Source: a virus
DNA: 56,832 nt
Virus record (IMG/VR): IMGVR_UViG_3300001533_002366
Coordinates: 1-56,832 of that record
Reading direction: 5' to 3' (one strand)
Both the position numbers and the translations under genes were made by a program. Numbering within the stretch: position 1 is the stretch's first letter; every line of letters begins with the position of its first letter. The notes below the pieces were generated by a model. That model ran no database searches and was not told the origin of the DNA. It saw nothing but the letters and a program-made list of their open reading frames with translations. Of the stretch, positions 22,349-49,684 are shown one piece after another.

Positions 22349-22370
22349 CTATATATATAAATTAATGAAG
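22349..22370 (+). promoter_or_regulatory. Conserved TATA-type promoter (variant)
   Basis: CTATATATATAAATTAATGA is a diverged copy of the 23-bp block (CTATATATATAAATT...TTGGAAT). It lies 27 bases before the ATG of the small membrane protein. TATAAATT resembles the T4 late promoter TATAAATA. Confidence 0.6.
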
Positions 22371-22396
22371 GAGATAAAATTTAACTAAGGAGGCAA

Positions 22397-22564
22397 ATGA
22401 AATACATACTATTGATAATGGGGGTTGTAATATTGACTCCCATTATCTATGTAGTGGGGGTAAAAATAGGAGGAATAGCATTAATAGGAATAACACTATT
22501 TCTCCTATTAAAGAATAAGAAAAATGATAGTGTCGATGTCTCAGATGATATTGACACTATCTAA
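22397..22564 (+). CDS. Small two-helix membrane protein; hairpin-rich gene
   Basis: 55 residues, unrecognised. There are two hydrophobic helices (about 3-20 and 25-38, joined by G-V-K-I-G-G) and an acidic tail (DSVDVSDDIDTI). AAGGAGG lies just upstream. The mRNA folds densely: 22414-22424 pairs with 22437-22447, 22465-22478 with 22496-22509 (14 bp with one G-U), and 22526-22540 with 22547-22561 (15 bp with two G-U), the last ending at the base before the TAA. It is a member of the hairpin-gene set. Function unknown; a membrane role in host takeover is conceivable. Confidence 0.7.
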   Translation: MKYILLIMGVVILTPIIYVVGVKIGGIALIGITLFLLLKNKKNDSVDVSDDIDTI

Positions 22565-22570
22565 AAAAAA

Positions 22571-22606
22571 GGTTCTTGGATATAACAAAAATTATATCCA
22601 AGAACC
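22571..22606. terminator. 15-bp terminator hairpin
   Basis: GGTTCTTGGATATAA and its complement with a 6-base loop, preceded by an A-run. The distal arm encodes the last codons of the convergent glycosyltransferase gene. Confidence 0.8.
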
Positions 22607-23626
22607 AGTATAAAAACTATTTAAATTTTGTTTACAAATTGCAGAAAACGATAAATTAGTATCTATTAAATCTTTAATTTTTTGTTTGATTATTGTTTGA
22701 TTATTATATACCTCACTTACTTTGTCTGATATATTATTATCATTATATACAAATATCCCATTTTGATTTTTATAATATTTTAAAAGTCTAGTTTCATCTC
22801 TAACAATAAGTGGTGTGCCTGACATTAATATTTCAGTCATAGCACGAGGACAACCATCTTTCATATTAGAATTTACTATTCCACAACAACTTTGATTTAA
22901 GAGAAGATTTAATTGAGACCTATCAACCCATCCAGCAAACTCTACATTTTTTACTGCATATTTCTTACATAATTTCTTTCCAACTTCAGGTTGATTTCCA
23001 CAATGTATTATCTTTGATTTTCTAAGAATACTATTTTGTTGTATCTTTGAAATAAAGTATTCCTGCCCTTTTTGAGTAATCTGACTAAAATTTGCAACCC
23101 AACAAATATCATATTTTTTTGTTTGTTTTTCTAATGGTCTAAATATGTTTGGATTGGCAGTTTTATAGAAAGGAGAACATTGATAATTTTTATTAATATC
23201 TCTTTCATCTTCCAATAAAATTACTTTATATTTCCCACCGTATTGTGGAAATACTCTTTTCCCAGAACCAAGATACATACTAATGCCAAATTGCTTTGGT
23301 TGATCTTTTGTTAATTCATCATATTCTGGGAAACCACCTCTAAATAATGTTATATTTGGTGGATCTAAATTATATGTTTCTTTAAAGGAATCACACCATC
23401 TTTGTATAAACTTCTTTCCATTTACATCAAATACAATCTCTTTTTGTTTTTCTTTTGGATTCAACCTCCATACAGTAACCTCATCAAATACATCATTTTC
23501 TAAATACCATATTCCTTGTAGTAAATAGAAATCATGACAATTATCTTTAAATGTTTGGAGGTCTTTATATTTATGATAATATTCAAGGTTTCTTAAATTA
23601 GTTCTGAATATCCAAAATTTTTTCAT
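22592..23626 (-). CDS. Glycosyltransferase, GT-B fold (family 4-like)
   Basis: 344 residues. The C-terminal Rossmann half has KIIHCGNQPEVGKKL, VEFAGWVDRSQLNLLLNQS and the donor-binding CPRAMTEILMSGTPLIV (E-x7-G/P pattern of retaining GT4 enzymes). The N-terminal half is divergent (FWIFRTNLRNLEYYHKYKDLQTF). Substrate unknown. It would transfer a sugar from a nucleotide donor in the cytoplasm, to DNA, protein or envelope glycan. It is an AT-rich gene isolated among hairpin genes, and its 3' end forms half of their terminator. Confidence 0.7.
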   Translation of the reverse strand: MKKFWIFRTNLRNLEYYHKYKDLQTFKDNCHDFYLLQGIWYLENDVFDEVTVWRLNPKEKQKEIVFDVNGKKFIQRWCDSFKETYNLDPPNITLFRGGFPEYDELTKDQPKQFGISMYLGSGKRVFPQYGGKYKVILLEDERDINKNYQCSPFYKTANPNIFRPLEKQTKKYDICWVANFSQITQKGQEYFISKIQQNSILRKSKIIHCGNQPEVGKKLCKKYAVKNVEFAGWVDRSQLNLLLNQSCCGIVNSNMKDGCPRAMTEILMSGTPLIVRDETRLLKYYKNQNGIFVYNDNNISDKVSEVYNNQTIIKQKIKDLIDTNLSFSAICKQNLNSFYTGSWI

Positions 23627-23698
23627 ACAATTAGTCCTTTCGTTTATATACAGTTTTATATTATCTTTATGACTTTTCCAAAGTCACTTTTTATTTTT

Positions 23699-23785
23699 TC
23701 AAGGTCTTTTTCTCCCCCATTTTACATCTTTAAAGAACTTCTTTCTATCCTTTTTTGATATTCTTCTTACTCTTTTTTTATCCAT
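23699..23785 (-). CDS. Very small basic protein
   Basis: 28 residues, MDKKRVRRISKKDRKKFFKD then VKWGRKRP, highly positive. AAGGAG sits seven bases before the ATG, which is the main support. It could bind nucleic acid. It is too short for family assignment. Confidence 0.4.
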   Translation of the reverse strand: MDKKRVRRISKKDRKKFFKDVKWGRKRP

Positions 23786-23811
23786 TTCAACTCCTTAGAT
23801 ATTAGATTAAT

Positions 23812-23833
23812 CTATATATTTCAATTAATGAAA
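23812..23833 (+). promoter_or_regulatory. Conserved TATA-type promoter (variant)
   Basis: CTATATATTTCAATTAATGA is a diverged copy of the conserved block immediately before the GGAGG of the next gene. Confidence 0.5.
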
Positions 23834-23845
23834 GGAGGAATTGTC

Positions 23846-23980
23846 ATGAGACAATTACTAATTGATGCAATAGAGCGCGGAAACTTAATCCGTGCTCGAC
23901 AAATCCTCTGTGTCATGAAGGCTCTTGGGAAGGAGCCTCCAAAAAAGGCACAGGATTTAATCAGAAGGCTACTTTCATAG
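23846..23980 (+). CDS. Small basic protein; hairpin-rich gene with start codon in a loop
   Basis: 44 residues, MRQLLIDAIERGNLIRARQI then LCVMKALGKEPPKKAQDLIRRLLS. It is an all-helical, basic, possibly nucleic-acid-binding or helix-hairpin protein with no recognised family. The mRNA is a chain of stems: 23839-23845 with 23850-23856, leaving ATGA as the loop so that the start codon is presented at the tip; 23873-23881 with 23889-23897 (9 bp, one G-U); AGGCTC/GAGCCT (23919-23938); and 23965-23973 with 23979-23987 across the stop codon. AGGAGG abuts the first stem. Confidence 0.65.
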   Translation: MRQLLIDAIERGNLIRARQILCVMKALGKEPPKKAQDLIRRLLS

Positions 23981-24018
23981 TAGCCTTTTGAGACTACTCA
24001 ATATGGGTAGTCTTTTTT
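23965..24018 (+). terminator. Double hairpin: stop-codon stem and terminator
   Basis: AAGGCTACT/AGTAGCCTT (9 bp, loop TTCAT) contains the TAG. It is followed by AGACTAC/GTAGTCT and TTTTTTT. The same two-hairpin layout is seen after the other small genes. Confidence 0.85.
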
Positions 24019-24046
24019 TATTTATTCTATCATTAATTTATGATAA

Positions 24047-24068
24047 CTATATATATTAATTAATGAAT
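24047..24068 (+). promoter_or_regulatory. Conserved TATA-type promoter (variant)
   Basis: CTATATATATTAATTAATGA block, shared almost exactly with the one at 25125, 30 bases before the next ATG. Confidence 0.6.
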
Positions 24069-24098
24069 AGAAAATTAACTTTTAAATAGGAGAGAATT

Positions 24099-24239
24099 AT
24101 GAGCCAGTATTGGGAAAGACGATTAATTTCCGCCTTCAGTTCTGAGAAATTGGAGGGGGAAATTAAAAAGTTTAAGGAGGGGGGGGAGAAATTAGAACCC
24201 TATCCCCCGAGACAAAGAAAGCGGTGCTGGATTTTATGA
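24099..24239 (+). CDS. Small charged protein; hairpin-rich gene
   Basis: 46 residues, unrecognised. An amphipathic N-terminal helix (SQYWERRLISAFSSEKLEGE) is followed by a Lys/Gly segment and a basic PYPPRQRKRCWIL end. The GC content is visibly higher than in neighbouring large genes. Stems: TTAATTTCC 24123-24131 with 24158-24166, a G-run/CCCCC pair, and an 11-bp stem 24223-24233 with 24239-24249 whose loop and 3' arm contain the TGA. AGGAGAG is the ribosome-binding site. Confidence 0.65.
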   Translation: MSQYWERRLISAFSSEKLEGEIKKFKEGGEKLEPYPPRQRKRCWIL

Positions 24240-24301
24240 ATCCAGCACCCAAAAAATAAAATGGTTCCCCCATTTAGGAGAATGGGGGATTCTTTTTTTT
24301 G
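24223..24301 (+). terminator. Double hairpin: stop-codon stem and terminator
   Basis: GGTGCTGGATT/AATCCAGCACC spans the stop codon. TCCCCCATT/AATGGGGGA with a run of eight T follows (24266-24301). Confidence 0.85.
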
Positions 24302-24323
24302 TATGCTTTTTTCAATCTCCCCT

Positions 24324-25028
24324 TTATATCCGTGCTTGGTTTTGTTGAAAAGCTATTATTCTTCTATTTGGAACTTCCATACACTGCAAACCAACTACTG
24401 ATAATGAATGAAGTGTAATGAAATTTGATCTAAATGCATTCCTTCCAAGATCTAAATTGGGCACCCCAGGTCTTCTTTTTCCACTAATTGTGTACCTCTT
24501 TGATAAATCTGATTCCTTTAAAAACTTCCTTAATAAAAATCGTATTGTATCAACATCCATTGTTTTATTAAAATAACATACAATATGAAAACCTGTCTTA
24601 CCTGTATATCTTATTTCTGCCTCTCTTATAATTGGAATATTAATAATGGTATTATATACATCTGAAGTGGTTGTTTTTGCCCATCTAAATCCATCATTTC
24701 CAACATCTACATCGATAATTCCAAAGTCTTCTTTTCTTTTCATTCCACTATGAATACTAATAGTACGTCCTGTAATTATTGTATCATAGTTAGAATTTGT
24801 TAATTGTATAAACCCAGCATTTGTGTCCTTTCTTTTTATAATTGTTTTATTTAGATCGACCGCTATAAAAAACATAAGATCTCTCCCAACAACCTCTTTT
24901 AATATTTTTGATCTTACTTTTTGATAATAATTCCAAATATCTATTTCTCTCAATCCTTTTGGATAAAATGTATTCTTTACAATAATCGTTTCTGGGTTCT
25001 CAGGGTAAGCCACTTTAATATCCTCCAT
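24324..25028 (-). CDS. Archaeo-eukaryotic primase-type polymerase (LigD PolDom-like)
   Basis: 234 residues. It probably makes primers for the family B polymerase. Evidence: IDIWNYYQKVRSKILKEVVGRDLMFFIAVDL resembles the start of LigD PolDom proteins. FGIIDVDVGNDG supplies the paired catalytic acids, EIRYTGKTGFHIVCYF matches the S/T-G-x-K-G-x-H motif, and GVPNLDLGRNAFRSNFITLHSLS is a late conserved arginine region. No zinc or helicase domain is attached. The ATG at 25028 has no ribosome-binding site, whereas GGAGG inside the frame precedes a GTG at 25013, so translation may start there (MAYPENPET). Confidence 0.65.
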   Translation of the reverse strand: MEDIKVAYPENPETIIVKNTFYPKGLREIDIWNYYQKVRSKILKEVVGRDLMFFIAVDLNKTIIKRKDTNAGFIQLTNSNYDTIITGRTISIHSGMKRKEDFGIIDVDVGNDGFRWAKTTTSDVYNTIINIPIIREAEIRYTGKTGFHIVCYFNKTMDVDTIRFLLRKFLKESDLSKRYTISGKRRPGVPNLDLGRNAFRSNFITLHSLSVVGLQCMEVPNRRIIAFQQNQARI

Positions 25029-25041
25029 TATAAAAATTTAG

Positions 25042-25051
25042 TATTTGTTCT
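25042..25051 (-). promoter_or_regulatory. AGAACAAATA element before the primase gene
   Basis: Exact element on the minus strand only 13 bases before the apparent ATG, with TATATACTAAT upstream. Initiation at or near AGAACA would give a very short leader, supporting the downstream GTG start. Confidence 0.5.
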
Positions 25052-25124
25052 ATTAGTATATAGTTATAATCTTTCATCTATGTATTTTTCACATAACATA
25101 ATATATAATGATTAATATATTGTA

Positions 25125-25146
25125 CTATATATATTAATTAATGAAT
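25125..25146 (+). promoter_or_regulatory. Conserved TATA-type promoter (variant)
   Basis: CTATATATATTAATTAATGA, 29 bases before the next ATG and nearly identical to the block at 24047. Confidence 0.6.
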
Positions 25147-25175
25147 AGGAGATACAACCTTAAAAGGAGGTAGAA

Positions 25176-25316
25176 ATGACAACTTTAATTGGTATTGGTA
25201 TATTTCTCCTAGTAATAGGGGGGGTAGACTTATTACTAGGAGGAATAGCAATAGGGTTCTCCTGCATAATTGCGGGAGGACTCTGGCTAGTAAATCTCCT
25301 GCGAATACATCCGTAG
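25176..25316 (+). CDS. Small Gly-rich membrane protein; hairpin-rich gene
   Basis: 46 residues, hydrophobic throughout (MTTLIGIGIFLLVIGGVDLL then LGGIAIGFSCIIAGGLWLVN). It forms two Gly-zipper transmembrane helices and is related in character to the protein at 22397. Stems: 25206-25217 with 25231-25242 (12 bp, perfect), 25257-25266 with 25271-25280 (10 bp, two G-U), and 25293-25303 with 25312-25322 (11 bp, one G-U) with the TAG in the 3' arm. AAGGAGGT is a near-perfect Shine-Dalgarno. A holin-like or membrane-modifying role is possible but not shown. Confidence 0.7.
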   Translation: MTTLIGIGIFLLVIGGVDLLLGGIAIGFSCIIAGGLWLVNLLRIHP

Positions 25317-25360
25317 GAGATTGAAATAAACCCTGGAACATAAATCTGGGGTTTATTTTT
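25293..25360 (+). terminator. Double hairpin: stop-codon stem and terminator
   Basis: AATCTCCTGCG/CGTAGGAGATT encloses the stop codon. AAATAAACCC/GGGTTTATTT with a T-run follows at 25324-25360. Confidence 0.85.
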
Positions 25361-25404
25361 TGATACAAATTATATCATAAGAAAATAAGAATAACCAACA
25401 ATAT

Positions 25405-25427
25405 CTATATATATAAATTATTGGAAT
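25405..25427 (+). promoter_or_regulatory. Conserved 23-bp promoter, exact copy 1
   Basis: CTATATATATAAATT followed by ATTGGAAT; identical over 23 bp to copies at 43130 (-), 48018 and 49383. ATTAATCTTTA follows here and at 49383. Confidence 0.75.
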
Positions 25428-25447
25428 GATAATTAATCTTTATTGAA

Positions 25448-25457
25448 AGAACAAATA
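25448..25457 (+). promoter_or_regulatory. AGAACAAATA element within a leader
   Basis: Exact AGAACAAATA 20 bases downstream of the conserved TATA block and just before AAGGAGG. This is the one place where both elements serve one gene. Confidence 0.45.
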
Positions 25458-25476
25458 ACTAAAAAGGAGGTACAAT

Positions 25477-25809
25477 ATGAAAATGAAAAAAGTAATAGTA
25501 ATATTCATAGCAATGTTTATGATGGTGTCATTATCGGCTCCACTATATGCCCGAGGTCATAGGCACTATAATGGACATAGTCACAGGAGTGATATAATAA
25601 CAGGAATAATAATTGGATCTATTCTTGGAGGAATAGCAACCTCCAATTATTATCCACAATATCACCACTACAACCACGACAACTACCACCAACCACGATA
25701 TCACAATCACCACTACAATCATTCATATCACCAACAAGTGTGGCATCCCGGTTATTACGACCGTTGTAGAGGTATATGGATACCTGGATGGTATTCATAT
25801 AGTAGATAA
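25477..25809 (+). CDS. Secreted His/Tyr-rich protein with WxPGxW-like motifs
   Basis: 110 residues. Sec signal peptide MKMKKVIVIFIAMFMMVSLS with cleavage likely after LYA (about 26). A Gly-zipper hydrophobic segment (IITGIIIGSILGGIA, about 41-55) is followed by a His/Tyr/Asn-rich region and a C-terminal WHPGYYDRCRGIWIPGWY, which resembles the YXWGXW/WXPGHW repeats of bacterial outer-envelope proteins. It is probably periplasmic or outer-membrane associated; metal binding by the His run is possible. The mRNA can form ATAATAATTGGA (25606-25617) with 25642-25653, in competition with TTGGAGG/CCTCCAA. It looks like a host-derived gene. Confidence 0.65.
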   Translation: MKMKKVIVIFIAMFMMVSLSAPLYARGHRHYNGHSHRSDIITGIIIGSILGGIATSNYYPQYHHYNHDNYHQPRYHNHHYNHSYHQQVWHPGYYDRCRGIWIPGWYSYSR

Positions 25810-25813
25810 TATT

Positions 25814-25893
25814 TGTCCTTGAGAACTAAACATAAAGAAGGCATCACCTCCTTTCTTTTAGATGTTCTCAAGGACATTCTATTTTTTTAGAAC
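25814..25893 (+). terminator. Long hairpin and T-run
   Basis: TGTCCTTGAGAAC (25814-25826) pairs with 25864-25876. The 37-base loop contains CACCTCCTTTCTTT, complementary to Shine-Dalgarno sequences, and a T-run follows. It is a terminator, and the loop could also act as an anti-SD RNA. Confidence 0.7.
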
Positions 25894-25908
25894 GAATATA
25901 TAATTAAT

Positions 25909-25918
25909 AGAACAAATA
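25909..25918 (+). promoter_or_regulatory. AGAACAAATA element before queC
   Basis: Exact element preceded by TATATAATTAAT; 38 bases before the queC ATG. It is the likely promoter of the long plus-strand operon. Confidence 0.5.
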
Positions 25919-25956
25919 AAAAATAAGAAGTATGAATATAAAGAAAGGAGAATAGA

Positions 25957-26532
25957 ATGGATAACAAAAAGATATTAATTTTATTTAGTGGTGGTGCAGA
26001 TAGTGTTCTGATGTTAGAAATTGCACTTGCAATGGGATATAAACCATATTGTTTGTTAGTAGATTATCAACAATTACATATAGTAGAATTAACATATGCA
26101 AATAACTATTTACAAAAGAAGAAAATTCCATATCAAACATTTAAATTAGATCTTCAAGGAATAAACAGTGGACTTACTGGGAATGGAAAACAAGGAACTT
26201 TTAAGAATGTAAATCCTCATTATGTTCCAGGAAGAAATACTATACTCTTATCTATAGGAGCAAGTATCGCAGAATCAATGGGAATTAATACTATTTGGTT
26301 GGGTGCAGACTATTCTGATATGGAAAATAAATTTCCTGACTGTACTCAAAAATATATATATAAAGCAAATCAGATGTTTAAAACATCTGGGTCAATACCA
26401 ATTAAAATCGAAGCTCCATTATTAGGACTTACCAAAGAAAATGTAATAAAGTTATTAAAACATTTTGGTGTAGAAATAACAGAAATTTTCTCTGGGTATG
26501 GAGAATTCGAAGAACAAGGAAACAAAACATAA
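25957..26532 (+). CDS. queC: QueC-like 7-cyano-7-deazaguanine synthase (short form)
   Basis: 191 residues. It would convert carboxy-deazaguanine to preQ0 with ATP and ammonia. The PP-loop ILFSGGADS (8-16) and the QueC motif GTFKNVNPHYVPGRNTILLSIGASIAES are clear, with WLGADYSDMENKFPDC and KIEAPLLGLTKENVI. It is about 30-40 residues shorter than usual, and the C-terminal four-Cys zinc site is missing; it ends EIFSGYGEFEEQGNKT. It is either a phage-specific minimal form or impaired. Its stop overlaps the HPRT start (TAATG). AAAGGAG precedes the ATG. Confidence 0.8.
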   Translation: MDNKKILILFSGGADSVLMLEIALAMGYKPYCLLVDYQQLHIVELTYANNYLQKKKIPYQTFKLDLQGINSGLTGNGKQGTFKNVNPHYVPGRNTILLSIGASIAESMGINTIWLGADYSDMENKFPDCTQKYIYKANQMFKTSGSIPIKIEAPLLGLTKENVIKLLKHFGVEITEIFSGYGEFEEQGNKT

Positions 26533-27059
26533 TGAAAGAAAAAATAATATATACAAAAGAGATGATCGCAGAAAGAGTAAAAGAAATAGGAAAGAGTATA
26601 ACAAAGGAATATACTTCAAATAAAGAAGAATTAGTATTAGTATGTGTACTATATGGAGCCGTCCTTTTCTTTTCCGATTTAATAAGAAATATAGATCTTC
26701 CAATAACAATTGATTTCGTAAGGGCTGAAAGTTATGGTCCAAGAATGAAGTCAAGTGGAGTAGTAAATATAACAAAAGATATTGAAAATAATATTACAAA
26801 TAAACAAGTAATATTGGTGGAAGATATCATAGATAGTGGTCTAACAATAACAAATTTAATTGAACACTTCGAACAGAAAAACCCAGATAGTATCCAAATA
26901 TGTTCATTGATTAATAAAACAGAGAGAAGAGACATACCAATTGATATTGATTATAGTGGATTCAAATTAAAAGAAGGTTTTGTAGTTGGTTATGGACTTG
27001 ACTATAATCAAAAAATGAGAAACTTGGCAGATATATATCTTATTGAGGAGGAAGATTAA
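26532..27059 (+). CDS. hpt: Hypoxanthine(-guanine) phosphoribosyltransferase
   Basis: 175 residues, the normal length. It joins hypoxanthine or guanine to PRPP. ELVLVCVLYGAVLFFSDLIR is the first loop, and VILVEDIIDSGLTITNL is the PRPP motif with its acidic pair. SYGPRMKSSG is the flexible loop and FVVGYGLDYNQKMRNL the typical C-terminal base-contact region. It is coupled to queC. A phage purine-salvage enzyme beside a deazaguanine gene could recycle guanine released when DpdA swaps bases, or feed nucleotide pools. The link is inference. Confidence 0.88.
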   Translation: MKEKIIYTKEMIAERVKEIGKSITKEYTSNKEELVLVCVLYGAVLFFSDLIRNIDLPITIDFVRAESYGPRMKSSGVVNITKDIENNITNKQVILVEDIIDSGLTITNLIEHFEQKNPDSIQICSLINKTERRDIPIDIDYSGFKLKEGFVVGYGLDYNQKMRNLADIYLIEEED

Positions 27060-27082
27060 TAATTAAAAATCAAGGAGAAATT

Positions 27083-27316
27083 ATGGTCAGTTATGATATG
27101 TTAGAGTTAAATCAGATATTAAAAAGAAGAGATGTGTTAAGAGATAGAATATTAACTTTTATTAAAAGTAGTGATGAAGATAAACAAAAATCATTAACAC
27201 AAAATGAAAGACGATCTATTAAAACTAATAAACTTCATAAGTATGATGATCCAAAATTAATTGAGGTTGCAAGGAAAATTATTAACCCAGAATTTCCAAA
27301 AGAGATGTATCAATAA
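27083..27316 (+). CDS. Hypothetical protein
   Basis: 77 residues, helical and charged (LNQILKRRDVLRDRILTFIK and later KYDDPKLIEVARKIINPEFP), unrecognised. AAGGAG is upstream. It lies in the nucleotide-metabolism operon. Confidence 0.55.
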   Translation: MVSYDMLELNQILKRRDVLRDRILTFIKSSDEDKQKSLTQNERRSIKTNKLHKYDDPKLIEVARKIINPEFPKEMYQ

Positions 27317-27350
27317 TAACAATAATTATATTAAGGAGAATATTTGAATT

Positions 27351-27875: not shown

Positions 27876-27884
27876 GAAAAACAA

Positions 27885-28208
27885 ATGGAAACTACCAACT
27901 TAAAAGTAAAAAAAGAAAATTTTCCAACGTTTTCTAAATTAATTGAAAATCAATTTATGCATGCTGGTAAAACAAAATACCAACTAAGTGAAGATAAAGA
28001 AATGACTGATTTAATTTGTGAGTTCGTTCCTGGTGACAGTGGAGTAGATTGGCCATTAGGAACAATATTAAAATATCTTGGTAGATTTAAAAACGAAGGA
28101 ATGGAAAAGGACTTATTAAAGATAGCAACATATTGCTATATAACCTGGTTAAAAATGGGTTTTCATTTAAATAGGGAACATTATGAAGACGTAGGTGAAA
28201 AGAAATGA
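27885..28208 (+). CDS. Hypothetical protein, DUF3310-like
   Basis: 107 residues. GTILKYLGRFKNEGMEKDLLKIATYCYITWLKMG (about 65-98) resembles the K-Y-x-x-R-x-K-x-G-x-x-D-L-x-K-A helix pair of small phage proteins called DUF3310 or nucleotide-kinase-like. The function of that family is unsettled. It overlaps the next gene by four bases (ATGA). Confidence 0.5.
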   Translation: METTNLKVKKENFPTFSKLIENQFMHAGKTKYQLSEDKEMTDLICEFVPGDSGVDWPLGTILKYLGRFKNEGMEKDLLKIATYCYITWLKMGFHLNREHYEDVGEKK

Positions 28209-28723
28209 ATTCAAAAATAGAATTTGTATCAATATATTGTAAAATATATACTGATACATTTGACTCAAAATTAACAAATACATTCGCAACAGGGGATGAA
28301 GTATTTGAATTTTTAATGAAAGATTGCGGTCATTGTTTTGATAAAAATGATAACATAATTCCAGGTGATTCTAATATTTGGTATCTTGGTTGTAATGAAA
28401 AATTTGGAGAGATGAGATATCGGTACCATTCTATTGAATGGGGGCATGGGGAATCATCTTTTGATAACGTTAAATTATTTATAAAAATTATGTTTGAGGA
28501 TAATTTTATAACTAAGAAACAGTATGATATACTTGGTAAAAAAATTGAAGAAGGATTACTAATTAATAATATGTATGATATCGGAGAATATCTTATAAAA
28601 AAACAAAATAATGAAAAATGGGTTACCCATAAAGATTCTAAAACTTTTAGAGAAAACTTTAAGAAAATGATATCTAATGTAAAAAACACATTAGAAAGAA
28701 TGAATTATACTATCTTAAGATAA
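28205..28723 (+). CDS. Hypothetical protein
   Basis: 172 residues, unrecognised. A beta-rich N-terminus (GHCFDKNDNIIPGDSNIWYL, EMRYRYHSIEWGHGESSF) is followed by a helical C-terminal half. It is translationally coupled to the preceding gene, so it may work with it. Confidence 0.5.
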   Translation: MNSKIEFVSIYCKIYTDTFDSKLTNTFATGDEVFEFLMKDCGHCFDKNDNIIPGDSNIWYLGCNEKFGEMRYRYHSIEWGHGESSFDNVKLFIKIMFEDNFITKKQYDILGKKIEEGLLINNMYDIGEYLIKKQNNEKWVTHKDSKTFRENFKKMISNVKNTLERMNYTILR

Positions 28724-28736
28724 ATGGAGGGAAATA

Positions 28737-29231
28737 GTGGAAAAAAAACAAACACAAGGAATTGATAATATTATAGAGCAAGTAAAAAAAGATGCTGATG
28801 ATAAGTTTTTGAAAAAAATAAAACAACATACAGAAAGAGAAGGTTTAGTAATTGATAAAGTATCAACTGCTTTACTTGACAAAAACTTTTCTCCATTAAT
28901 TGTCCGAAAATACCAAGTGGAAGGATGGCCATTATATATCGGTCTAATATGTGATATAAGTTTATCCGATTTGGATCATCTTATTTGGAAAATAATAAGA
29001 GATAGTGGACAATTAGAAAATGATATACAAAACATAAGAAATCTAACAGGAATCATTAGTGACAAACTATTAGAACATTATAACAATATAAAAGAAGGAT
29101 GTGTGGAAGGAATTGCAGTAATATATTACTGTGATAAAATGATGGTCTCCTCTTTGTGGGGAGATTTTATGACTCACCTAAGTTGTAAAATGGAGTTATA
29201 TAGCATTATACAAACACTTCCTCACATATAA
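28737..29231 (+). CDS. Hypothetical protein (GTG start)
   Basis: 164 residues, unrecognised. A charged helical N-terminus (about 1-45) precedes a mixed domain with hydrophobic helices (LYIGLICDISLSDLDHLIWK). The GTG start is chosen for the GGAGG seven bases upstream. Confidence 0.5.
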   Translation: MEKKQTQGIDNIIEQVKKDADDKFLKKIKQHTEREGLVIDKVSTALLDKNFSPLIVRKYQVEGWPLYIGLICDISLSDLDHLIWKIIRDSGQLENDIQNIRNLTGIISDKLLEHYNNIKEGCVEGIAVIYYCDKMMVSSLWGDFMTHLSCKMELYSIIQTLPHI

Positions 29232-29255
29232 TATTTTATATAAGGAGAATAAAGC

Positions 29256-29777
29256 ATGAAGATTATTGAATTATTAAGACAAAAGAAGATTATCAAAAAA
29301 CGAATGGATGACAATATCAGAAGAATTCAACAATATTCTTCGATGGTTTCTGTAGAAAAAGCAATATATGATACAGAACAAAAACAAAAAGAAGAAGTGA
29401 AAAAACTTATCCAATCAAATGTTGATCTATTAAAACAAATAATGAAAGTTCAAAGACAAATTGAAGAAATGAATTTAAAAACAAAAATAGAAATTGATGG
29501 GATATACTATACAATTAGTGACCTCCTTCTTCTAAAAAGAGGTATGATTCAAACTATGGTCAGAACATATGAAGCTCTAAATGACCAAGAAGGAAAAAAT
29601 AGAATGATGTATTATCGATCTGATGGAGGAGGAAAAACATATAATTCTCAACCACAGCTTGTACGTCTATATGATGAAGAAGTAAAAAATAATGGTCTTA
29701 ATGTATGGAAATATTTTGAAGATAATATTAATTCAAAATTAGAGATCGTAAATGCTACAACTGATGTAACAGAATAA
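29256..29777 (+). CDS. Hypothetical coiled-coil protein
   Basis: 173 residues. A long charged coiled coil (about 1-90, with KKRMDDNIRRIQQYSSMV and KQKEEVKKLIQSNVDLLK) precedes a small C-terminal domain. The layout (coil, then IEIDGIYYTISDLLLLKRGM) is seen in several phage proteins of unknown function. AAGGAG is upstream, and the candidate ncRNA follows directly. Confidence 0.55.
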   Translation: MKIIELLRQKKIIKKRMDDNIRRIQQYSSMVSVEKAIYDTEQKQKEEVKKLIQSNVDLLKQIMKVQRQIEEMNLKTKIEIDGIYYTISDLLLLKRGMIQTMVRTYEALNDQEGKNRMMYYRSDGGGKTYNSQPQLVRLYDEEVKNNGLNVWKYFEDNINSKLEIVNATTDVTE

Positions 29778-29782
29778 ATAAG

Positions 29783-30443: not shown

Positions 30444-30926
30444 ATGAATGAAAGTAAAAAACAAACAATTATAGTTGCACCACACCCAGATGATGAAATT
30501 ATTGGATGTTATGAAATTCTAATTAAAGAAAAACCAATAATTATTTATTCAGCATCTACAAGTAAAGACAGAAGAGAAGAATCTATAAGATTAAAAGAAT
30601 TTGTAGATATTAATGTACAATTATTTTTAGAAACAATACCCTCAAATTTCATAAATCCAGACACTACAATCTATATGCCTGATCCAAATTATGAAATACA
30701 TCCACTACATAGACAATGGGGACATATTGGTGAATCAATAGCAAGAAGTAAACAATCTAATATTATCTTTTACAATACTACAATGACTGCACCATATATT
30801 CATGAAGTGGGAGAATCAGAAAACAAAGAAAAACTCCTAAATGATGTATATACAAGTCAAAAATCTTTGTGGGAATATGAAAAGAAATACATACTTTTTG
30901 AAGGATATTGTAAGTGGATATTTTAA
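30444..30926 (+). CDS. PIG-L/LmbE-family deacetylase
   Basis: 160 residues, shorter than the usual 220-270. IIVAPHPDDEIIGCYE (10-25) is the zinc-binding A-H-P-D-D-E motif. The downstream zinc His is probably in IHPLHRQWGH (about 90-99). The family removes acetyl groups from N-acetylglucosaminyl compounds. With the sugar-nucleotide genes nearby it could process a sugar used in glycan modification. AGGAG lies upstream. Confidence 0.75.
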   Translation: MNESKKQTIIVAPHPDDEIIGCYEILIKEKPIIIYSASTSKDRREESIRLKEFVDINVQLFLETIPSNFINPDTTIYMPDPNYEIHPLHRQWGHIGESIARSKQSNIIFYNTTMTAPYIHEVGESENKEKLLNDVYTSQKSLWEYEKKYILFEGYCKWIF

Positions 30927-31144
30927 AAGTTGTGGAACTAATATCTACAGTTTTTGTAATGATTGGTGTTCCATTAATTTCAATACCTGATATTCGTGGA
31001 TTATACTTTCTATTACTTGGTCAAATTGGATGGTCCATTTTTGGCTATTTTAATGAATCTTATTTTTTTACAATTCAAAGTATATTTCTATTAATGTTTA
31101 ACTTTATTGGAATTTATAATTGGAGGAAAAAAAGAATAGGATAA
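30914..31144 (+). CDS. Small three-helix membrane protein (GTG start)
   Basis: 76 residues with three hydrophobic helices (about 5-22, 28-44, 50-68) ending NWRKKRIG, a positive cytoplasmic end. The helix with a closing Y-N-W-R-K resembles half of PnuC-type transporters. The start is GTG with AAGGA inside the end of the preceding gene, overlapping it by 13 bases. Confidence 0.55.
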   Translation: MDILKVVELISTVFVMIGVPLISIPDIRGLYFLLLGQIGWSIFGYFNESYFFTIQSIFLLMFNFIGIYNWRKKRIG

Positions 31145-42627: not shown

Positions 42628-42669
42628 GTTAGAGACTACAATAGAATTCAATCCATTGTAGTCTCTAAC
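42628..42669 (-). terminator. 15-bp terminator hairpin
   Basis: GTTAGAGACTACAAT and its complement with a 12-base loop, right after the hairpin-rich gene that ends at 42672. T-rich sequence follows on the minus strand. Confidence 0.85.
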
Positions 42670-42671
42670 CA

Positions 42672-43097
42672 TTATATATCATCAATAGAGATTGATTTGC
42701 GCCAGTCTCTATTGACAACCATGTATGTGAAGCCACGTCCTCCCCCATTGGAAGAAGCCCTCCTGAAGTACAGAGCTCCTTCCTCTTCGGATAGGTCTCC
42801 TCTGTCTCTTCGTTCACCCCACCTCTCCCTCAAAAGGTGGTGTTTTGCCCCTTCCATCGTTGGGTGAAAACATGAGGTCCCCTTTTTGGAGACCCAAAAA
42901 TTTCCAGGAAGAACATCGATTACCCGTCCGTCAATGTTGTAATAGTTCATATGGATTTCTTTCCATGAAAGGAAGTCAATACTCTCATTCATTTCAGTAT
43001 CTATTGGAATCTCGTCCAACACAAACGTCAGATTTGGACGATATTTCCCATAGTCCAAATATAGCCACTGACCATTGTCTAATTTTGTAAAACTCAT
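42672..43097 (-). CDS. Hypothetical protein; hairpin-rich gene
   Basis: 141 residues, unrecognised (MSFTKLDNGQWLYLDYGKYR, later GRGFTYMVVNRDWRKSISIDD). It is GC-richer than its neighbours. Stems in the sense RNA: 42775-42783 with 42750-42758 (9 bp, complete only with a G-U), 42876-42882 with 42888-42894 (7-8 bp, again G-U), 43012-43019 with 43034-43041, and 42682-42691 with 42706-42715 just before the stop. GGAGGG ribosome-binding site and an exact copy of the conserved promoter. Function unknown. Confidence 0.7.
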   Translation of the reverse strand: MSFTKLDNGQWLYLDYGKYRPNLTFVLDEIPIDTEMNESIDFLSWKEIHMNYYNIDGRVIDVLPGNFWVSKKGTSCFHPTMEGAKHHLLRERWGERRDRGDLSEEEGALYFRRASSNGGGRGFTYMVVNRDWRKSISIDDI

Positions 43098-43129
43098 TTT
43101 TCCCTCCTTAAAAATTAAAGTTAATTACC

Positions 43130-43152
43130 ATTCCAATAATTTATATATATAG
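43130..43152 (-). promoter_or_regulatory. Conserved 23-bp promoter, exact copy 2
   Basis: Minus-strand CTATATATATAAATT plus ATTGGAAT, 33 bases before the ATG of the hairpin-rich gene. GGTAATTAA follows, as at 49383. Confidence 0.75.
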
Positions 43153-43177
43153 AATAGGGATCAATCATAACATAAAG

Positions 43178-43187
43178 AGAACAAATT
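43178..43187 (+). promoter_or_regulatory. AGAACAAAT element
   Basis: AGAACAAATT before AAAAGGAG of the FmdB-like gene; divergent from the conserved 23-bp promoter. Confidence 0.45.
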
Positions 43188-43201
43188 TAAAAGGAGTACA
43201 T

Positions 43202-43393
43202 ATGCCATTATATGAATATGAATGTTCTAAATGTAAAAATAAAATAGAATTGTTAGAAAAGTATTCAGAAAATACAACAAAGATTTGTAGTATATGTGGT
43301 GGATTAATGAAACGTATTATGTCAAAAAATACTTTTCATTTAAAAGGAAATGGTTGGTATATTACCGACTATAAGAATAAGGAACAAAAATGA
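43202..43393 (+). CDS. FmdB-like zinc-ribbon protein
   Basis: 63 residues. MPLYEYECSKCKNKIELLEK...CSICGGLMKRIMSKNTFHLKGNGWY matches the FmdB/CxxC_CxxC_SSSS family of small regulators. In phages its role is unknown. ATGA overlap with the nuclease gene that follows. Confidence 0.8.
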   Translation: MPLYEYECSKCKNKIELLEKYSENTTKICSICGGLMKRIMSKNTFHLKGNGWYITDYKNKEQK

Positions 43394-45153: not shown

Positions 45154-45176
45154 TAAACAAATCACTCTTTTTCTAG
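45139..45176. terminator. 16-bp bidirectional terminator overlapping the nuclease stop
   Basis: CTAGAAAAAGAGTGAT and its complement with loop AAACAA. The TGA lies in the 5' arm. It serves the convergent tail sheath gene too. Confidence 0.88.
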
Positions 45177-45189
45177 AAGTTAAAAGTTA

Positions 45190-47148
45190 TTACTTAATAA
45201 AGAAGTTTAACATAATATGCTCAACAACTCTTGTAGGTTCTAATTCAACATTTACATGAAACGTCTTTGATTTGAGTTCATAATCAGTTGCCCCAACACT
45301 TACATTATAACTATATAAACCTCTCCTAGATCTAAGATCTTCCAAGAATTCAGTAATATCTCCACCAACCTGTCCCCAAGTAATAGCGTCGTTCAGTTCG
45401 AAAATAAAGAATTGACAATATTGCTCTATCGCCCTCTTTATATAAAGTACAAGACGAACAATATTCAAATCTTGAAGTGCACTAGCTTTTGCTTGAGAAG
45501 TCAACTGGCCCCATACAACATAACCAGCATTAAACTGAACAATTGGATTTAATTGTTTCAAATACATTTGATCCCTTTGTCCAGATCTTGGATTAAACCT
45601 CAGTTCTTTAATTGTATCTATTGCAGCTCGATTAAATCCAGCAGCCGCATACCAAATTTCGGCGACTCTATCATTTCTCGGAAGCAAGTAAGACATATGA
45701 TATATGGGTGAGAACCAAACATCCCTTCCAGAAAATATATCATACACCCTATTATAAGATTCATATAATGCAACAAGATAATTATTATATGTTTGAGTAT
45801 CTTGTCTTTCATCCATTGCAGTATCAAAACTAGCATTATCTCCATTATCAAGAATAGCTACACAATCACTTCTTGTAGTAACAAGAGTGACTATACTATC
45901 TTTAACACTTTCATTATATCCACAATCAAATACCATATTAAAATACATTCTTTCAGGATCAAGTATTTCAGGATCTAATGTTCCAGCATAACCATTTGAA
46001 AGAGCACTATCACCTTCCGCACTAACGATGTCACCAGTAGCATCAAGAAGAGCTCCATCAGAACCTCTTTTTAATGGTGCAGGTTCAATTGAAGTAAATG
46101 CATCTGCCACACTTCCATAAGACTTCTTAATTATATATGTAATTTCAGATGTAGGATCAAAACTAGTAGGACTTCCATTCCAAGATTGAGTTGCACCAGC
46201 AAAACTTCTTTCATTCCATACATTTATTGTTTCATTATTTGCATCAGTTGAAGCTCCTAACCAACCCCACACCTCAACTCCCTTTCCATCTTTTGCTATA
46301 ATAACATAATTAGCATCACCATCTTCTGGATCCGTTTCCCATGCACTAAAGTCTTGTTTATTATCCGTAATAGTAGCTGCACCATCTGTCATTACAGCGG
46401 AAAGAGTACCCATTTCTTTATCATATACTCGAGCCCAATTTTCATAACCAGAAGAATAAGCACCACTAGATAATGTCATTTCAGCTCTTAATACTGAAGA
46501 ATAAAGTTGTAAAATATCTGTTATAAATATTGAATCACCAGCAGAATCAATAGCACTCGGATTAAACGATACTTCAAAAGATTCAATAATAACATCATCT
46601 CCATCTGATTGTTTCTCATAAACATCCATTACATATGTATCAAATAATAAGGAATTAGAATGTTCGGTAAATCTTATTCCAAGACCATTATAATATTCTC
46701 CCCTACCTATTGGATATATCATACATAGTGGCCAAAGAGAAACAAGACTCTCCAAAGATGTTTTAATTCCTGCCGTAGTATTTAATCCAGTAACATGTGA
46801 AAAGGATATACCAGCAGTCGTATCTCCATCTCCAAAACTAACATCTAATCTCATATTAGCATAAGCAGCATCATCAGGAAGACATCTCATAAAGTATAGA
46901 GAAGAAGACTCCCCAAGAAAGTTATATGCACAATATAACCCCTGTGAAAAATGCTTTCCATAATCTGTAATATTTGGTTCTCCATATTGACTTGTTAATT
47001 CTGATCTAGAACCAATAAAATTTATCTTATTATCTTCTCCTTTTGGAGTGAGTGCACATATCATTCCAACACTTCCAGGTACAGCTTGAACATATGTACT
47101 TAAATCAACTATTTTAGTATATACACCAGGTGATATAGGATTTGCCAT
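45190..47148 (-). CDS. Tail sheath protein, T4 gp18-like
   Basis: 652 residues, near T4 gp18 (659). N-terminus PISPGVYTKIVDLSTYVQAVPGS and the NFIGSRSELTSQYGEP stretch are typical sheath features. The C-terminal domain (SQAKASALQDLNIVRLVLYIKRAIEQYCQFFIFELND and YELKSKTFHVNVELEPTRVVEHIML) is the conserved core that inserts strands into neighbouring subunits. A variable surface domain lies between. It confirms a contractile tail. AGGA upstream. Confidence 0.87.
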   Translation of the reverse strand: MANPISPGVYTKIVDLSTYVQAVPGSVGMICALTPKGEDNKINFIGSRSELTSQYGEPNITDYGKHFSQGLYCAYNFLGESSSLYFMRCLPDDAAYANMRLDVSFGDGDTTAGISFSHVTGLNTTAGIKTSLESLVSLWPLCMIYPIGRGEYYNGLGIRFTEHSNSLLFDTYVMDVYEKQSDGDDVIIESFEVSFNPSAIDSAGDSIFITDILQLYSSVLRAEMTLSSGAYSSGYENWARVYDKEMGTLSAVMTDGAATITDNKQDFSAWETDPEDGDANYVIIAKDGKGVEVWGWLGASTDANNETINVWNERSFAGATQSWNGSPTSFDPTSEITYIIKKSYGSVADAFTSIEPAPLKRGSDGALLDATGDIVSAEGDSALSNGYAGTLDPEILDPERMYFNMVFDCGYNESVKDSIVTLVTTRSDCVAILDNGDNASFDTAMDERQDTQTYNNYLVALYESYNRVYDIFSGRDVWFSPIYHMSYLLPRNDRVAEIWYAAAGFNRAAIDTIKELRFNPRSGQRDQMYLKQLNPIVQFNAGYVVWGQLTSQAKASALQDLNIVRLVLYIKRAIEQYCQFFIFELNDAITWGQVGGDITEFLEDLRSRRGLYSYNVSVGATDYELKSKTFHVNVELEPTRVVEHIMLNFFIK

Positions 47149-47269
47149 TTAAAATTTTCCTCCATTATTTCTTTTCTATATTTTTATAAACTTTTATTAA
47201 GTCAAATCACCTTTCTTATTAATCTCTAATCTATTAATCTAAATTTTCTAAAATTCCTTTTGTAATTTC

Positions 47270-47944
47270 TTAAAAATAAAGATACCAAACAAAAACCAAT
47301 TGAATAGTAGCAGATTTTATTATAGTTGGAAAAGTAAGTTTTGAAAATAAGTGAAATGGTCCAACATAACCACCAGCATCACTAGCAGCAGTAAATAAGC
47401 CAACTTCATTCACTTCTTGGTCTACAGCATCAGCTACTCCAAAAGTAATTCCTATTTTAGCAATAAGCCAAGCATTATCATTATATCCATCTTGCTCATA
47501 CTCAAGAGTAAATGGAACTTTATGATAATAACCATCATGAAAATCTGCATAAGCTGCATTAGTTGGATTAATTGGAACATCATTCCCCAAAGAAACATCT
47601 TGATTAATTGGTGGATATGGATCAAAAGGATCTGCGGGATTTACACTCCCGTTACCAATACCAGCCCAACAAAGAAATTCTGATATCTCAGGTGATGTGG
47701 ATGCATTTTCTATATTAAAAATCTTCTCACAAATTAATTCTCGAGCTAAATATACAACTAGGTTATTATTTTTATAAATAACTTTATCTTCACCTTTTTC
47801 ATTAATTTCGTGTATCTCTACTTTTCCTTGAGGACGTCTCTTATGTATATTTTTTGAACGACCCCCCAAACTATCAGCAAGACATACATCTCCATAATAA
47901 TCCTTTGCTGAAACAATTATTGTTTTCTTTTTTTCTTCAAACAT
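47270..47944 (-). CDS. Virion/baseplate-associated structural protein
   Basis: 224 residues, not firmly assigned. It ends EVGLFTAASDAGGYVGPFHLFSKLTFPTIIKSATIQLVFVWYLYF, a pattern (N-E-V-G-L-F then LF-x-K-x-T-F-P-x-I-x-K then L-x-F-x-W) common in phage tail or baseplate proteins. The N-terminus is charged. Directly upstream of the sheath gene in transcription, so it is likely a tail component. Confidence 0.6.
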   Translation of the reverse strand: MFEEKKKTIIVSAKDYYGDVCLADSLGGRSKNIHKRRPQGKVEIHEINEKGEDKVIYKNNNLVVYLARELICEKIFNIENASTSPEISEFLCWAGIGNGSVNPADPFDPYPPINQDVSLGNDVPINPTNAAYADFHDGYYHKVPFTLEYEQDGYNDNAWLIAKIGITFGVADAVDQEVNEVGLFTAASDAGGYVGPFHLFSKLTFPTIIKSATIQLVFVWYLYF

Positions 47945-47978
47945 AGATATTTATCCTTTTTAATAATATCCCCATTTT

Positions 47979-47989
47979 TATTTTGTTCT
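47979..47989 (-). promoter_or_regulatory. AGAACAAAATA element
   Basis: Minus-strand element with TACAAT upstream, 35 bases before the structural gene. Confidence 0.45.
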
Positions 47990-48017
47990 ACTATTGTATC
48001 GAAGTTAGTAAATTGAA

Positions 48018-48040
48018 CTATATATATAAATTATTGGAAT
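48018..48040 (+). promoter_or_regulatory. Conserved 23-bp promoter, exact copy 3
   Basis: CTATATATATAAATT plus ATTGGAAT, 25 bases before the ATG of the next gene. Confidence 0.75.
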
Positions 48041-48064
48041 ATAAATCAACCTTAAAAGGAGGAA

Positions 48065-48523
48065 ATGATGGGACAAATAGAAATAGAAGATGCAAGTGGA
48101 AGAGTCGTTGAAATTGAAGAAGTCAACGACAAAATCTTCGTCTTCCTGAACAGCCAACATAAATTATTGGCTGAGCAGGAGGAAATCCTAAATGCCAGTT
48201 TTGGAACTGGCACTTGGGAAATCTTCGAAGTTCCAGCCGAAGGCTGGACTATTGAGGAAATAGAGAAAGTAGCAGAAAATAATTTCCAAAATGGGGAGAC
48301 GGCAGTATTTGCCTCACCCATTCCAGCACTGATCTCCCGCCTTGCCTTTTCGCGGGGGGCGTGGTCATGGTCAGAGACCATAAACCACCAACCCGACAGC
48401 GTCTTTTGCGGCGCTGTCTGGATATTCCACAACGACCGCCGGGTCTCAAAAGAGGTCCCCGACGGCAAGGGGGGAGTTAGGATAATCAAGACCGTTGCCC
48501 CGACTGGATGGCAACTGGTCTAA
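48065..48523 (+). CDS. Hypothetical protein; hairpin-rich, GC-rich gene
   Basis: 152 residues, acidic N-terminus, no recognised family (residues MMGQIEIEDASGRVVEIEEV at the start, WIFHNDRRVSKEVPDGKGGV near the end). The start may be 48065 or the adjacent ATG at 48068. Codons are unusually GC-rich. Stems: 48104-48110/48124-48130, 48151-48157/48167-48173, 48193-48200/48205-48212, 48232-48238/48242-48248, 48361-48372/48376-48388 (internal loop), and 48395-48403/48410-48418 (9 bp, one G-U). A bulged GTTGCC/GGCAAC stem abuts the stop. Nearly the entire mRNA can pair. Confidence 0.7.
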   Translation: MMGQIEIEDASGRVVEIEEVNDKIFVFLNSQHKLLAEQEEILNASFGTGTWEIFEVPAEGWTIEEIEKVAENNFQNGETAVFASPIPALISRLAFSRGAWSWSETINHQPDSVFCGAVWIFHNDRRVSKEVPDGKGGVRIIKTVAPTGWQLV

Positions 48524-48529
48524 CTAGAA

Positions 48530-48569
48530 GGTTCATTGTGATACAGAGAGATTTGTATCACAATGAACC
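48530..48569 (+). terminator. 15-bp perfect hairpin after the stop
   Basis: GGTTCATTGTGATAC and its complement, 10-base loop. An A-rich rather than T-rich tract follows, so some read-through into the PEP-CTERM gene is likely. Confidence 0.7.
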
Positions 48570-48646
48570 CATAGAACAAAAAAAAGAAAGGAGGGAAAAA
48601 ACGGTAGGAGTATTTTTTTAATTAATCTTTAAGGAGGAAGGAAAGT

Positions 48647-49321
48647 ATGAAAAAAGTTATTTTAATGAAAAGAGTTATTTTAGTAGTTTTAATGGTAATG
48701 TTTCTAGCATCATTTGGGTGGGCATATACAATAAACGACCACCCAAATGATGCCATAGAGGCATCACCAGGAATTTATGAAAGTCTTGGAATAGACATCA
48801 ATGTCGTAAATGGATTTATGACATTCGATCTGTTTACAGCATTTGATGGATATAATCGGGTTGGCTCTTGGGATACATATGGTGCCGATCTGGCTCTTGA
48901 TTTTAATCGAGATGGATGGTTTGAAACCGCGTTTGGTCTGGATAATCATTCACCCACTTATGGCCACCTGATGACAGGAGTAACATCCTGGTTATCAAGT
49001 ACAGACAGAAAGAACCAAGACGGTGGTGCAAGTGGGAATTACAATTACGGTAATTCTCAATGGATTACAGCAGAGAACTTTACCGACTCGGTATTTTATG
49101 GAGTTGAACATGACACTATAGGATATCATTTCGAATTTCTAACCCCAGTAGACTACAATGGAGAAGATATTCAAATCCATTGGGGCACTGCAACATGTGC
49201 TAATGATATAGTTCAGGGAGATGCAAATGTACCTGTCCCTGAACCAGCAACTATGCTCTTACTGGGAAGTGGATTGATTGGACTTGCGGGAATTGGAAGG
49301 AAAAAAATGAAGAGAAGCTAG
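48647..49321 (+). CDS. PEP-CTERM sorting-domain protein
   Basis: 224 residues. Signal peptide (MKKVILMKRVILVVLMVMFL, cleavage near GWA, about 27), a beta-rich mature domain, and a C-terminal VPEPATMLLLGSGLIGLAGIGRKKMKRS: the V-P-E-P motif, hydrophobic helix and basic end that exosortase recognises in Gram-negative EPS producers. The start could be MKRV eight codons in. The mRNA carries a perfect 15-bp stem (48707-48721 with 48739-48753) across the signal-cleavage region and several 6-7 bp stems, for example GAATTAC/GTAATTC. It has its own AAGGAGG and probably reads through from the conserved promoter at 48018. I know of no well-studied phage example. Confidence 0.85.
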   Translation: MKKVILMKRVILVVLMVMFLASFGWAYTINDHPNDAIEASPGIYESLGIDINVVNGFMTFDLFTAFDGYNRVGSWDTYGADLALDFNRDGWFETAFGLDNHSPTYGHLMTGVTSWLSSTDRKNQDGGASGNYNYGNSQWITAENFTDSVFYGVEHDTIGYHFEFLTPVDYNGEDIQIHWGTATCANDIVQGDANVPVPEPATMLLLGSGLIGLAGIGRKKMKRS

Positions 49322-49368
49322 AAAAAAAAGTAGATAGGATTTATTAATAATCCTATCTACTTTTTTTT
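49322..49368 (+). terminator. Terminator after the PEP-CTERM gene
   Basis: AAGTAGATAGGAT and its complement flanked by A8 and T8. Confidence 0.9.
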
Positions 49369-49382
49369 GTAAAAATTTTATT

Positions 49383-49405
49383 CTATATATATAAATTATT
49401 GGAAT
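49383..49405 (+). promoter_or_regulatory. Conserved 23-bp promoter, exact copy 4
   Basis: CTATATATATAAATT plus ATTGGAAT, then GGTAATTAATCTTTAAAG and the GGAGG of the next gene. Confidence 0.78.
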
Positions 49406-49433
49406 GGTAATTAATCTTTAAAGGAGGGGAAAA

Positions 49434-49640
49434 ATGAATATAAAGCGACAACCCGATTATGGGTTCGAGGACTTTATCAGATTCACTCGAACCCATAAGT
49501 CATTCCGACAGTCAGTCGGAATGACATTTCGATTAATAACATGGTCAGTAAAGGGGGCTGACTATGTTATTGGCAAAATAGCTGACCCCTTCTTCAATAA
49601 GGTTGACAAAAAAGTGTCAACCTTATTGAAATTAGAATGA
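49434..49640 (+). CDS. Small basic protein encoded by an almost fully paired mRNA
   Basis: 68 residues, basic and amphipathic (MNIKRQPDYGFEDFIRFTRT and later VDKKVSTLLKLE), unrecognised. The coding sequence is a series of stems: 49457-49469 with 49486-49498 (13 bp), 49499-49509 with 49515-49525 (11 bp, loop AGTCA), 49535-49548 with 49558-49571 (14 bp, one G-U), and 49593-49608 with 49615-49630 (16 bp). These cover about 144 of 207 nt. The stop follows seven bases after the last stem, then a terminator. It is the clearest member of the hairpin-gene set. Confidence 0.7.
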   Translation: MNIKRQPDYGFEDFIRFTRTHKSFRQSVGMTFRLITWSVKGADYVIGKIADPFFNKVDKKVSTLLKLE

Positions 49641-49641
49641 G

Positions 49642-49684
49642 AAAAATAGGTAGGATTATTAATAAATCCTACCTATTTTTTTTG
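49642..49684. terminator. Bidirectional terminator
   Basis: AATAGGTAGGATT and its complement with A-tract and T-tract, between the small gene and the convergent phosphoesterase. Confidence 0.9.

Follow-up and report, generated by a model that had tools for sequence, protein, structure and literature searches.

In single-stranded RNA phages of the MS2 type, in which the genome is the RNA itself, the coding RNA is arranged as successive hairpins. Structured open reading frames (ORFs) under selection have been reported across life and in viruses, mostly RNA viruses, with escape from targeting by small RNAs offered as a reason (PMC6544989), and the structures in viral coding regions have been catalogued (PMC6563262). 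Here we describe nine small genes of a T4-like phage, eight of which have coding sequences (CDSs) that fold well beyond shuffles of their own synonymous codons. They are encoded in IMG/VR record IMGVR_UViG_3300001533_002366, whose whole length of 56,832 bases was analyzed and is referred to below as the window, and they are named by the first coordinate given in Table 1. A first-pass annotation of this DNA had regarded the nine as chains of RNA hairpins and knew of no described system of that kind. A literature search that left most subscription papers outside its reach found no account of hairpin-chained genes grouped by a promoter in a double-stranded DNA (dsDNA) phage, so that part of the claim stands, whereas structured CDSs as such are generally known (PMC6544989).

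Excess folding of the coding sequences

In the null model, synonymous codons were shuffled within each CDS with the protein and the codon usage fixed (120-300 shuffles per gene), and the nine genes were compared with the 67 other genes of the window. Eight of the nine fold beyond their synonymous shuffles, with z-scores from -2.6 to -6.2. The median excess is -0.096 kcal/nt in the nine and -0.004 kcal/nt in the 67 others (Mann-Whitney p = 1.2e-6; area under the curve [AUC] 0.987), and raw folding energy per nt separates the two groups with an AUC of 0.995. This comparison, against both codon-preserving shuffles and the other genes, is the one that the first-pass annotation had proposed, and it confirms excess folding in eight of the nine genes, which in this respect resemble genome-scale ordered RNA structure (GORS). 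With such a median among the 67 other genes, a genome-wide spread of structured CDSs was not found in the window. The gene that drops out is 25477, which had been counted as a hairpin gene and shows no significant excess folding (z -1.4; 12 of 120 synonymous shuffles are as low).

The same contrast is found in the stems themselves: perfect stems that are 8 bp or longer and include four or more G/C number 4.1 per kb across the nine CDSs and 0.10 per kb in the other CDSs, a difference of about 40-fold that bears out the earlier impression of stems far richer in GC than the surrounding genes. That most of these genes have a stem at the stop codon was likewise well observed, as 22397, 23846, 24099, 25176 and 48065 have stems that extend to or across the stop codon, and those of 42672 and 49434 finish near it. 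Excess folding of 48647 is mostly within its first ~170 nt, the first tile analyzed. In 22397 and 49434, the order of the amino acids itself suits the fold (codon-order z of about -10).

Some other genes of the window (1865-2236, 14487-15872, 28205-29777 and 30914-31144) have moderately low synonymous z-scores of -3.3 to -4.9 but ordinary energies per nt.

A dispersed family of palindromic repeats, such as repetitive extragenic palindromic or Rickettsia palindromic elements, was rejected as an identity of the hairpins, whose stems are unrelated in sequence. Direct repeats are chiefly segments of promoter, leader and terminator, plus one coding 12-mer, GGAGGAATAGCA (Gly-Gly-Ile-Ala), which is shared by 22397, 25176 and 25477 and is an arm of a stem in two of the three. 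Rfam models gave no match to the window at gathering scores.

Gene units and their source phage

The nine genes are linked by what surrounds them. The window contains seven exact copies of TATATATWAATTA, and each precedes one of the nine genes by 44-69 nt; from its position and conservation, this class-A element is a putative promoter. A conserved promoter had been claimed for the whole set; the element stands before seven of the genes in exact form and before 23846 in degenerate form, and 48647, which sits downstream of 48065, is without a copy. The leader that follows the element, ATTGGAATGRTAATTAATCTTTAAAGGAGG or a shorter version of it, is likewise common to the set, and a start codon and a ribosome-binding site are present in all nine genes. 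The exact 24-nt promoter had no match in viral contigs. Many core operons, including those of the polymerase and the capsid, carry another element, TAGAACAAAT or close variants, ~25-70 nt upstream. With at most one mismatch it has 40 matches where 17.7 are expected, and it is probably a second class of promoter.

Hairpins downstream of the genes were identified by eye, and one is present after every one of the nine (Table 1). A terminator had been expected after each gene, but the hairpins after 22397 and 48065 are without a U-run on the strand of the gene. The one after 22397 resembles a terminator serving the convergent gene 22592-23626.

Among the proteins encoded in the window are the portal (gp20) and major capsid protein (gp23) of T4 type, a tail sheath protein, a helicase of DnaB type and a DNA polymerase of the B family. 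The window is therefore a portion of a T4-like phage, AT-rich with a GC content of ~28%. The closest relatives of the polymerase (53% identity) are from uncultivated viral contigs of 142-277 kb, of which the 277-kb one aligns across the full length of its fusion of uracil-DNA-glycosylase domain and polymerase. Among the other genes of the window, 2872-5418 (+) encodes a large DUF7487 protein whose match to the Mom DNA-modification family (E 1.4e-5) falls short of the curated cut-off. The presence of the PEP-CTERM gene 48647 in a phage hints at a Gram-negative host with exosortase; this protein had no relative among named phages.

Table 1. Positions of the nine genes, their flanking elements and other features; positions are those of the window except in the last row. 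Synonymous z refers to shuffles of synonymous codons.
Feature	Positions	Strand	Description	Values
Gene 22397	22397..22564	+	55 aa, small membrane protein, hairpin gene; three long stems at CDS nt 18-51, 69-113 and 130-165, the last finishing at the stop codon	synonymous z -5.6; codon-order z -10.0
Gene 23846	23846..23980	+	44 aa, basic, hairpin gene	synonymous z -4.0
Gene 24099	24099..24239	+	46 aa, hairpin gene, weakest passing; stop codon inside the loop of an 11-bp stem, 24223-24249	synonymous z -2.6; 2/300 shuffles as low
Gene 25176	25176..25316	+	46 aa, small membrane protein, hairpin gene; stems of 19 and 14 bp counting G.U; a stem spans the stop codon	synonymous z -3.5
Gene 25477	25477..25809	+	110 aa, secreted, rich in His and Tyr; has the upstream element of the set and a hairpin after it	synonymous z -1.4
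Gene 42672	42672..43097	-	141 aa, hairpin gene; final 16-bp stem just 5' of the stop codon	synonymous z -3.7
Gene 48065	48065..48523	+	152 aa, hairpin gene; undescribed protein family, predicted Rossmann-like fold	synonymous z -6.2
Gene 48647	48647..49321	+	secreted protein of 224 aa with PEP-CTERM; stem of 17 bp near the start; lacks its own upstream element	synonymous z -4.0; PF07589 E 1.2e-6
Gene 49434	49434..49640	+	68 aa, hairpin gene; stems of 13, 11, 14 and 16 bp	synonymous z -4.5; codon-order z -10.4
Class-A promoter-like element	22352..22364	+	TATATATAAATTA, 45 nt upstream of 22397	
Degenerate class-A element	23812..23832	+	upstream of 23846	
Class-A element	24050..24062	+	upstream of 24099	
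Class-A element	25128..25140	+	upstream of 25176	
Class-A element	25408..25420	+	upstream of 25477	
Class-A element	43137..43149	-	upstream of 42672-43097	
Class-A element	48021..48033	+	upstream of 48065	
Class-A element	49386..49398	+	upstream of 49434	
Hairpin	22571..22606	+	after 22397; no U-run on +	
Terminator-like hairpin	23992..24019	+	after 23846	
Terminator-like hairpin	24266..24299	+	after 24099	
Terminator-like hairpin	25327..25361	+	after 25176	
Terminator-like hairpin	25814..25887	+	after 25477; 13 bp	
Hairpin	42628..42669	-	after 42672; 15 bp	
Hairpin	48530..48569	+	after 48065; 16 bp; no U-run	
Terminator-like hairpin	49322..49368	+	after 48647	
Terminator-like hairpin	49642..49683	+	after 49434	
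TAGAACAAAT copies	22231-22240, 25043-25052, 25908-25917, 50966-50975		plus one-mismatch variants	
GGAGGAATAGCA sites	22466-22481, 25236-25251, 25624-25639		in 22397, 25176 and 25477	
DNA polymerase	18945-22190	-	B-family, with N-terminal uracil-DNA-glycosylase-like domain	
Intergenic hairpin (examples)	1907-1930, 6050-6086		in contig L007	

Structured genes in other phages

Hairpin-rich CDSs recur in unrelated uncultivated phages with different stems. Proteins related to the 48065 product are encoded on several unrelated viral contigs and on a single contig from a Sideroxydans metagenome-assembled genome, and none was found among named phages; 49434 and 42672 had no relatives in viral contigs. 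Eight of the 11 distinct relatives of 48065 have CDSs with z-scores of -2.8 to -6.6, and the CDSs of those in L034, L040 and L041 are without excess folding. The gene adjacent in the operon of the relative is also structured in L033 (z -8.3) and L038 (z -7.0). These two contigs share 80-84% nucleotide identity, and 33 of 190 and 26 of 104 predicted pairs are broken in the other phage with just one two-sided compensation per gene. Because the total energies nevertheless remain nearly equal, foldedness rather than a particular structure is kept, and an RNA structure conserved base by base was rejected in favor of generic foldedness.

Structured CDSs are also found in L007, a soil phage contig in which a lysozyme gene and three more genes have z-scores of -3.1 to -9.4. 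Separately, L007 carries before or after many of its genes an intergenic hairpin with CCTAGG arms and loop-side TCAAAAAGTG/ACACTTTTTG repeats. Of the 376 genes of the 277-kb relative, the one with the strongest structure (199315-199578, z -6.0) carries a class-A element with one mismatch. The sampled regions of T4, T7 and SPO1 had no comparable set of structured genes (ocr of T7, z -2.3), and structured CDSs as a general trait of early or anti-host genes were rejected.

The family of 48065 is marked by the conserved motifs NEQHxLLPxQ, SPIP and FHNDxRxxKExPxGK. Its member in L033, which had no relatives among named phages or plasmids, is modeled with a Rossmann-like fold and a late antiparallel beta hairpin (predicted local distance difference test score [pLDDT] 89), and a search of the PDB with this model gave ~10 CARF chains in the top 50, none of them significant (E 0.08-0.35). 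Csx15 was rejected as the identity of 48065, as one relative scored 12.1 bits (E 0.17) where the NCBIfam cut-off is 35. In its small size, predicted Rossmann-like fold and antiparallel beta hairpin late in the chain, the 48065 product is like Csx15 and the CARF-fold ring nucleases (PMC13148439, PMC12409355), but it falls under every sequence and fold threshold. Relatives of 48065 adjoin ArdA in L030 (1594-2115, Pfam E 7e-35) and in L038 (1707-2228, recognized by eye) and ArdC in L034 (879-1733, E 2e-29), where the ArdC CDS is itself structured (z -5.5).

Candidate functions and comparison with known systems

Strong local hairpins can block 3' exonucleases and limit access to AU-rich RNA. In infection by T4-type phages, mRNA decay is intense and a host nuclease cleaves single-stranded RNA (PMC3014915). 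For these reasons, stabilization of the small transcripts is the mechanism that we favor, tentatively, as the best available and somewhat likelier to be wrong than right. In this reading, the phage carries a set of small accessory genes, mostly one gene to a unit, and each combines a shared promoter-like element and a strong ribosome-binding site with a hairpin-folded CDS and a hairpin downstream. The hairpins would slow decay of the transcript by obstructing exonucleases and by leaving part of the AU-rich RNA folded, and each small message would thereby stay plentiful while phage and host nucleases destroy mRNA. The encoded proteins are probably host-directed accessory factors.

In predicted folds, the unpaired fraction of the CDSs is below that of the shuffles, unpaired runs of at least 10 nt number 43 against 55 in shuffles, and predicted pairing in most leaders is less than in the CDSs. 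Several observations weigh against stabilization of the sense RNA. The longest unpaired runs sum to 304 nt, compared with 303 nt in shuffles; open RNase-E-like motifs are not depleted (39, against 40 in shuffles); ribosome-binding regions are not clearly open; and class-A genes of the 277-kb relative are weakly enriched for structure, to a degree that varies with the cut-off. In addition, selection on sense RNA should tolerate G.U in stems more than A.C mismatches, and the ratio in the window alone (23:15) does not significantly distinguish RNA from DNA. Resistance to RNases, one of the reasons first suggested, is thus weakened where it implies covering of the whole message; what is selected is strong local hairpins and not full coverage.

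A cause at the level of DNA, in which template switching in replication would sharpen quasi-palindromes or cruciforms would be selected as DNA, is consistent with that ratio, with stems that are mostly Watson-Crick and with antisense strands that fold nearly equally; in the nine window genes alone, sense and antisense z-scores do not differ significantly. When the nine genes are pooled with 24 structured genes from relatives, G.U exceeds A.C by 79:46, where shuffles predict 53% G.U (p = 0.015), and excess folding is greater in the sense than in the antisense strand of 30 genes (p = 2e-5 on energies), a comparison that is biased in that most of the comparison genes were pre-chosen for sense folding. 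Mutational palindromes also leave the confinement to one promoter class unexplained. Selection on the sense RNA is likely though unproven, and we consider a DNA-level cause unlikely. The first-pass annotation had assigned the shared property to the mRNA; codon-preserving tests and the unrelatedness of the proteins place it at the level of nucleic acid rather than protein, while the preference for RNA over DNA is modest.

Equally unlikely, in our judgment, is that the hairpins hide messages from guide-directed RNA recognition by type III or type VI CRISPR (clustered regularly interspaced short palindromic repeats) systems, such that genes needed early escape detection or cutting. In vitro, a structured target RNA can be detected by type III systems up to two orders of magnitude less well (PMC8682760). 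For RNA viruses, backfolding has been suggested as a protection from small-RNA targeting (PMC6544989), and such evasion would select generic foldedness without fixed stems. The anti-restriction neighbors ArdA (L030) and ArdC (L034) and the non-significant resemblance of the 48065 fold to CARF proteins point in the same direction. Against it, open runs of up to 34 nt persist in the CDSs, the sampled early genes of T4 are unstructured, as are T7 and SPO1 genes for anti-restriction or host takeover, and so are the core genes of this phage, though also targetable. The broader proposition, that unrelated and probably anti-host genes with a dedicated promoter are coded as hairpins, here and in unrelated phages, so that their messages resist RNA-directed defense, is to be regarded with the same skepticism; if true, this resistance would be a nucleic-acid counterpart of anti-CRISPR proteins, and mRNA folding a new route to anti-defense genes.

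Slightly less probable again is control of translation, in which ribosomes would open the stems in turn and output or folding of the product would be tied to ribosome supply. The stems do lie within CDSs that follow strong ribosome-binding sites, in many cases at the stop codon, but the proteins are unrelated, stem positions are unconserved in relatives and nothing points to a shared site of control. That the transcripts function on their own as structured RNAs, with the ORFs secondary, would fit the amino-acid order of 22397 and 49434, but is very improbable given the conserved protein relatives of 48065, a start codon and ribosome-binding site in every gene, and the lack of a common RNA structure or Rfam match. 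An artefact of base composition, or chance, can be almost wholly discounted, because the GC content of the nine genes (0.31-0.49, against ~0.28 for the genome) is preserved along with the codons in the shuffles and the excess persists.

These results show that unrelated genes of a DNA phage can, as a set, come under a second constraint at the level of the nucleic acid, and that this recurs in other uncultivated phages. Should the hairpins prove to shield messages from RNases or RNA-guided immunity, the folding of the mRNA could reveal phage accessory genes without protein similarity, and the same protein with and without hairpins would make a clean comparison possible.

Among described systems, the host-takeover module of SPO1 is similar in its many small early genes and differs in lacking excess CDS folding. 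T4, of the same broad phage group, also has mRNA fate as a control point at which stable transcripts matter (RNase E, RegB, RNase LS/Dmd and gene 32; PMC3014915), but its control works through single sites, pseudoknots and proteins, and the sampled T4 genes are without comparable hairpin chains. Phages of the MS2 type share hairpin-chained coding RNA, which here is confined to selected transcripts of a dsDNA phage. The closest likeness is to GORS-like systems (PMC6544989, PMC6563262), in which synonymous codons also give extra folding of ORFs, foldedness is generic and evasion of immunity has been proposed as the reason. Those systems are genome-wide and strongest in RNA viruses, whereas the folding described here belongs to unrelated small genes of a dsDNA phage with one upstream element.

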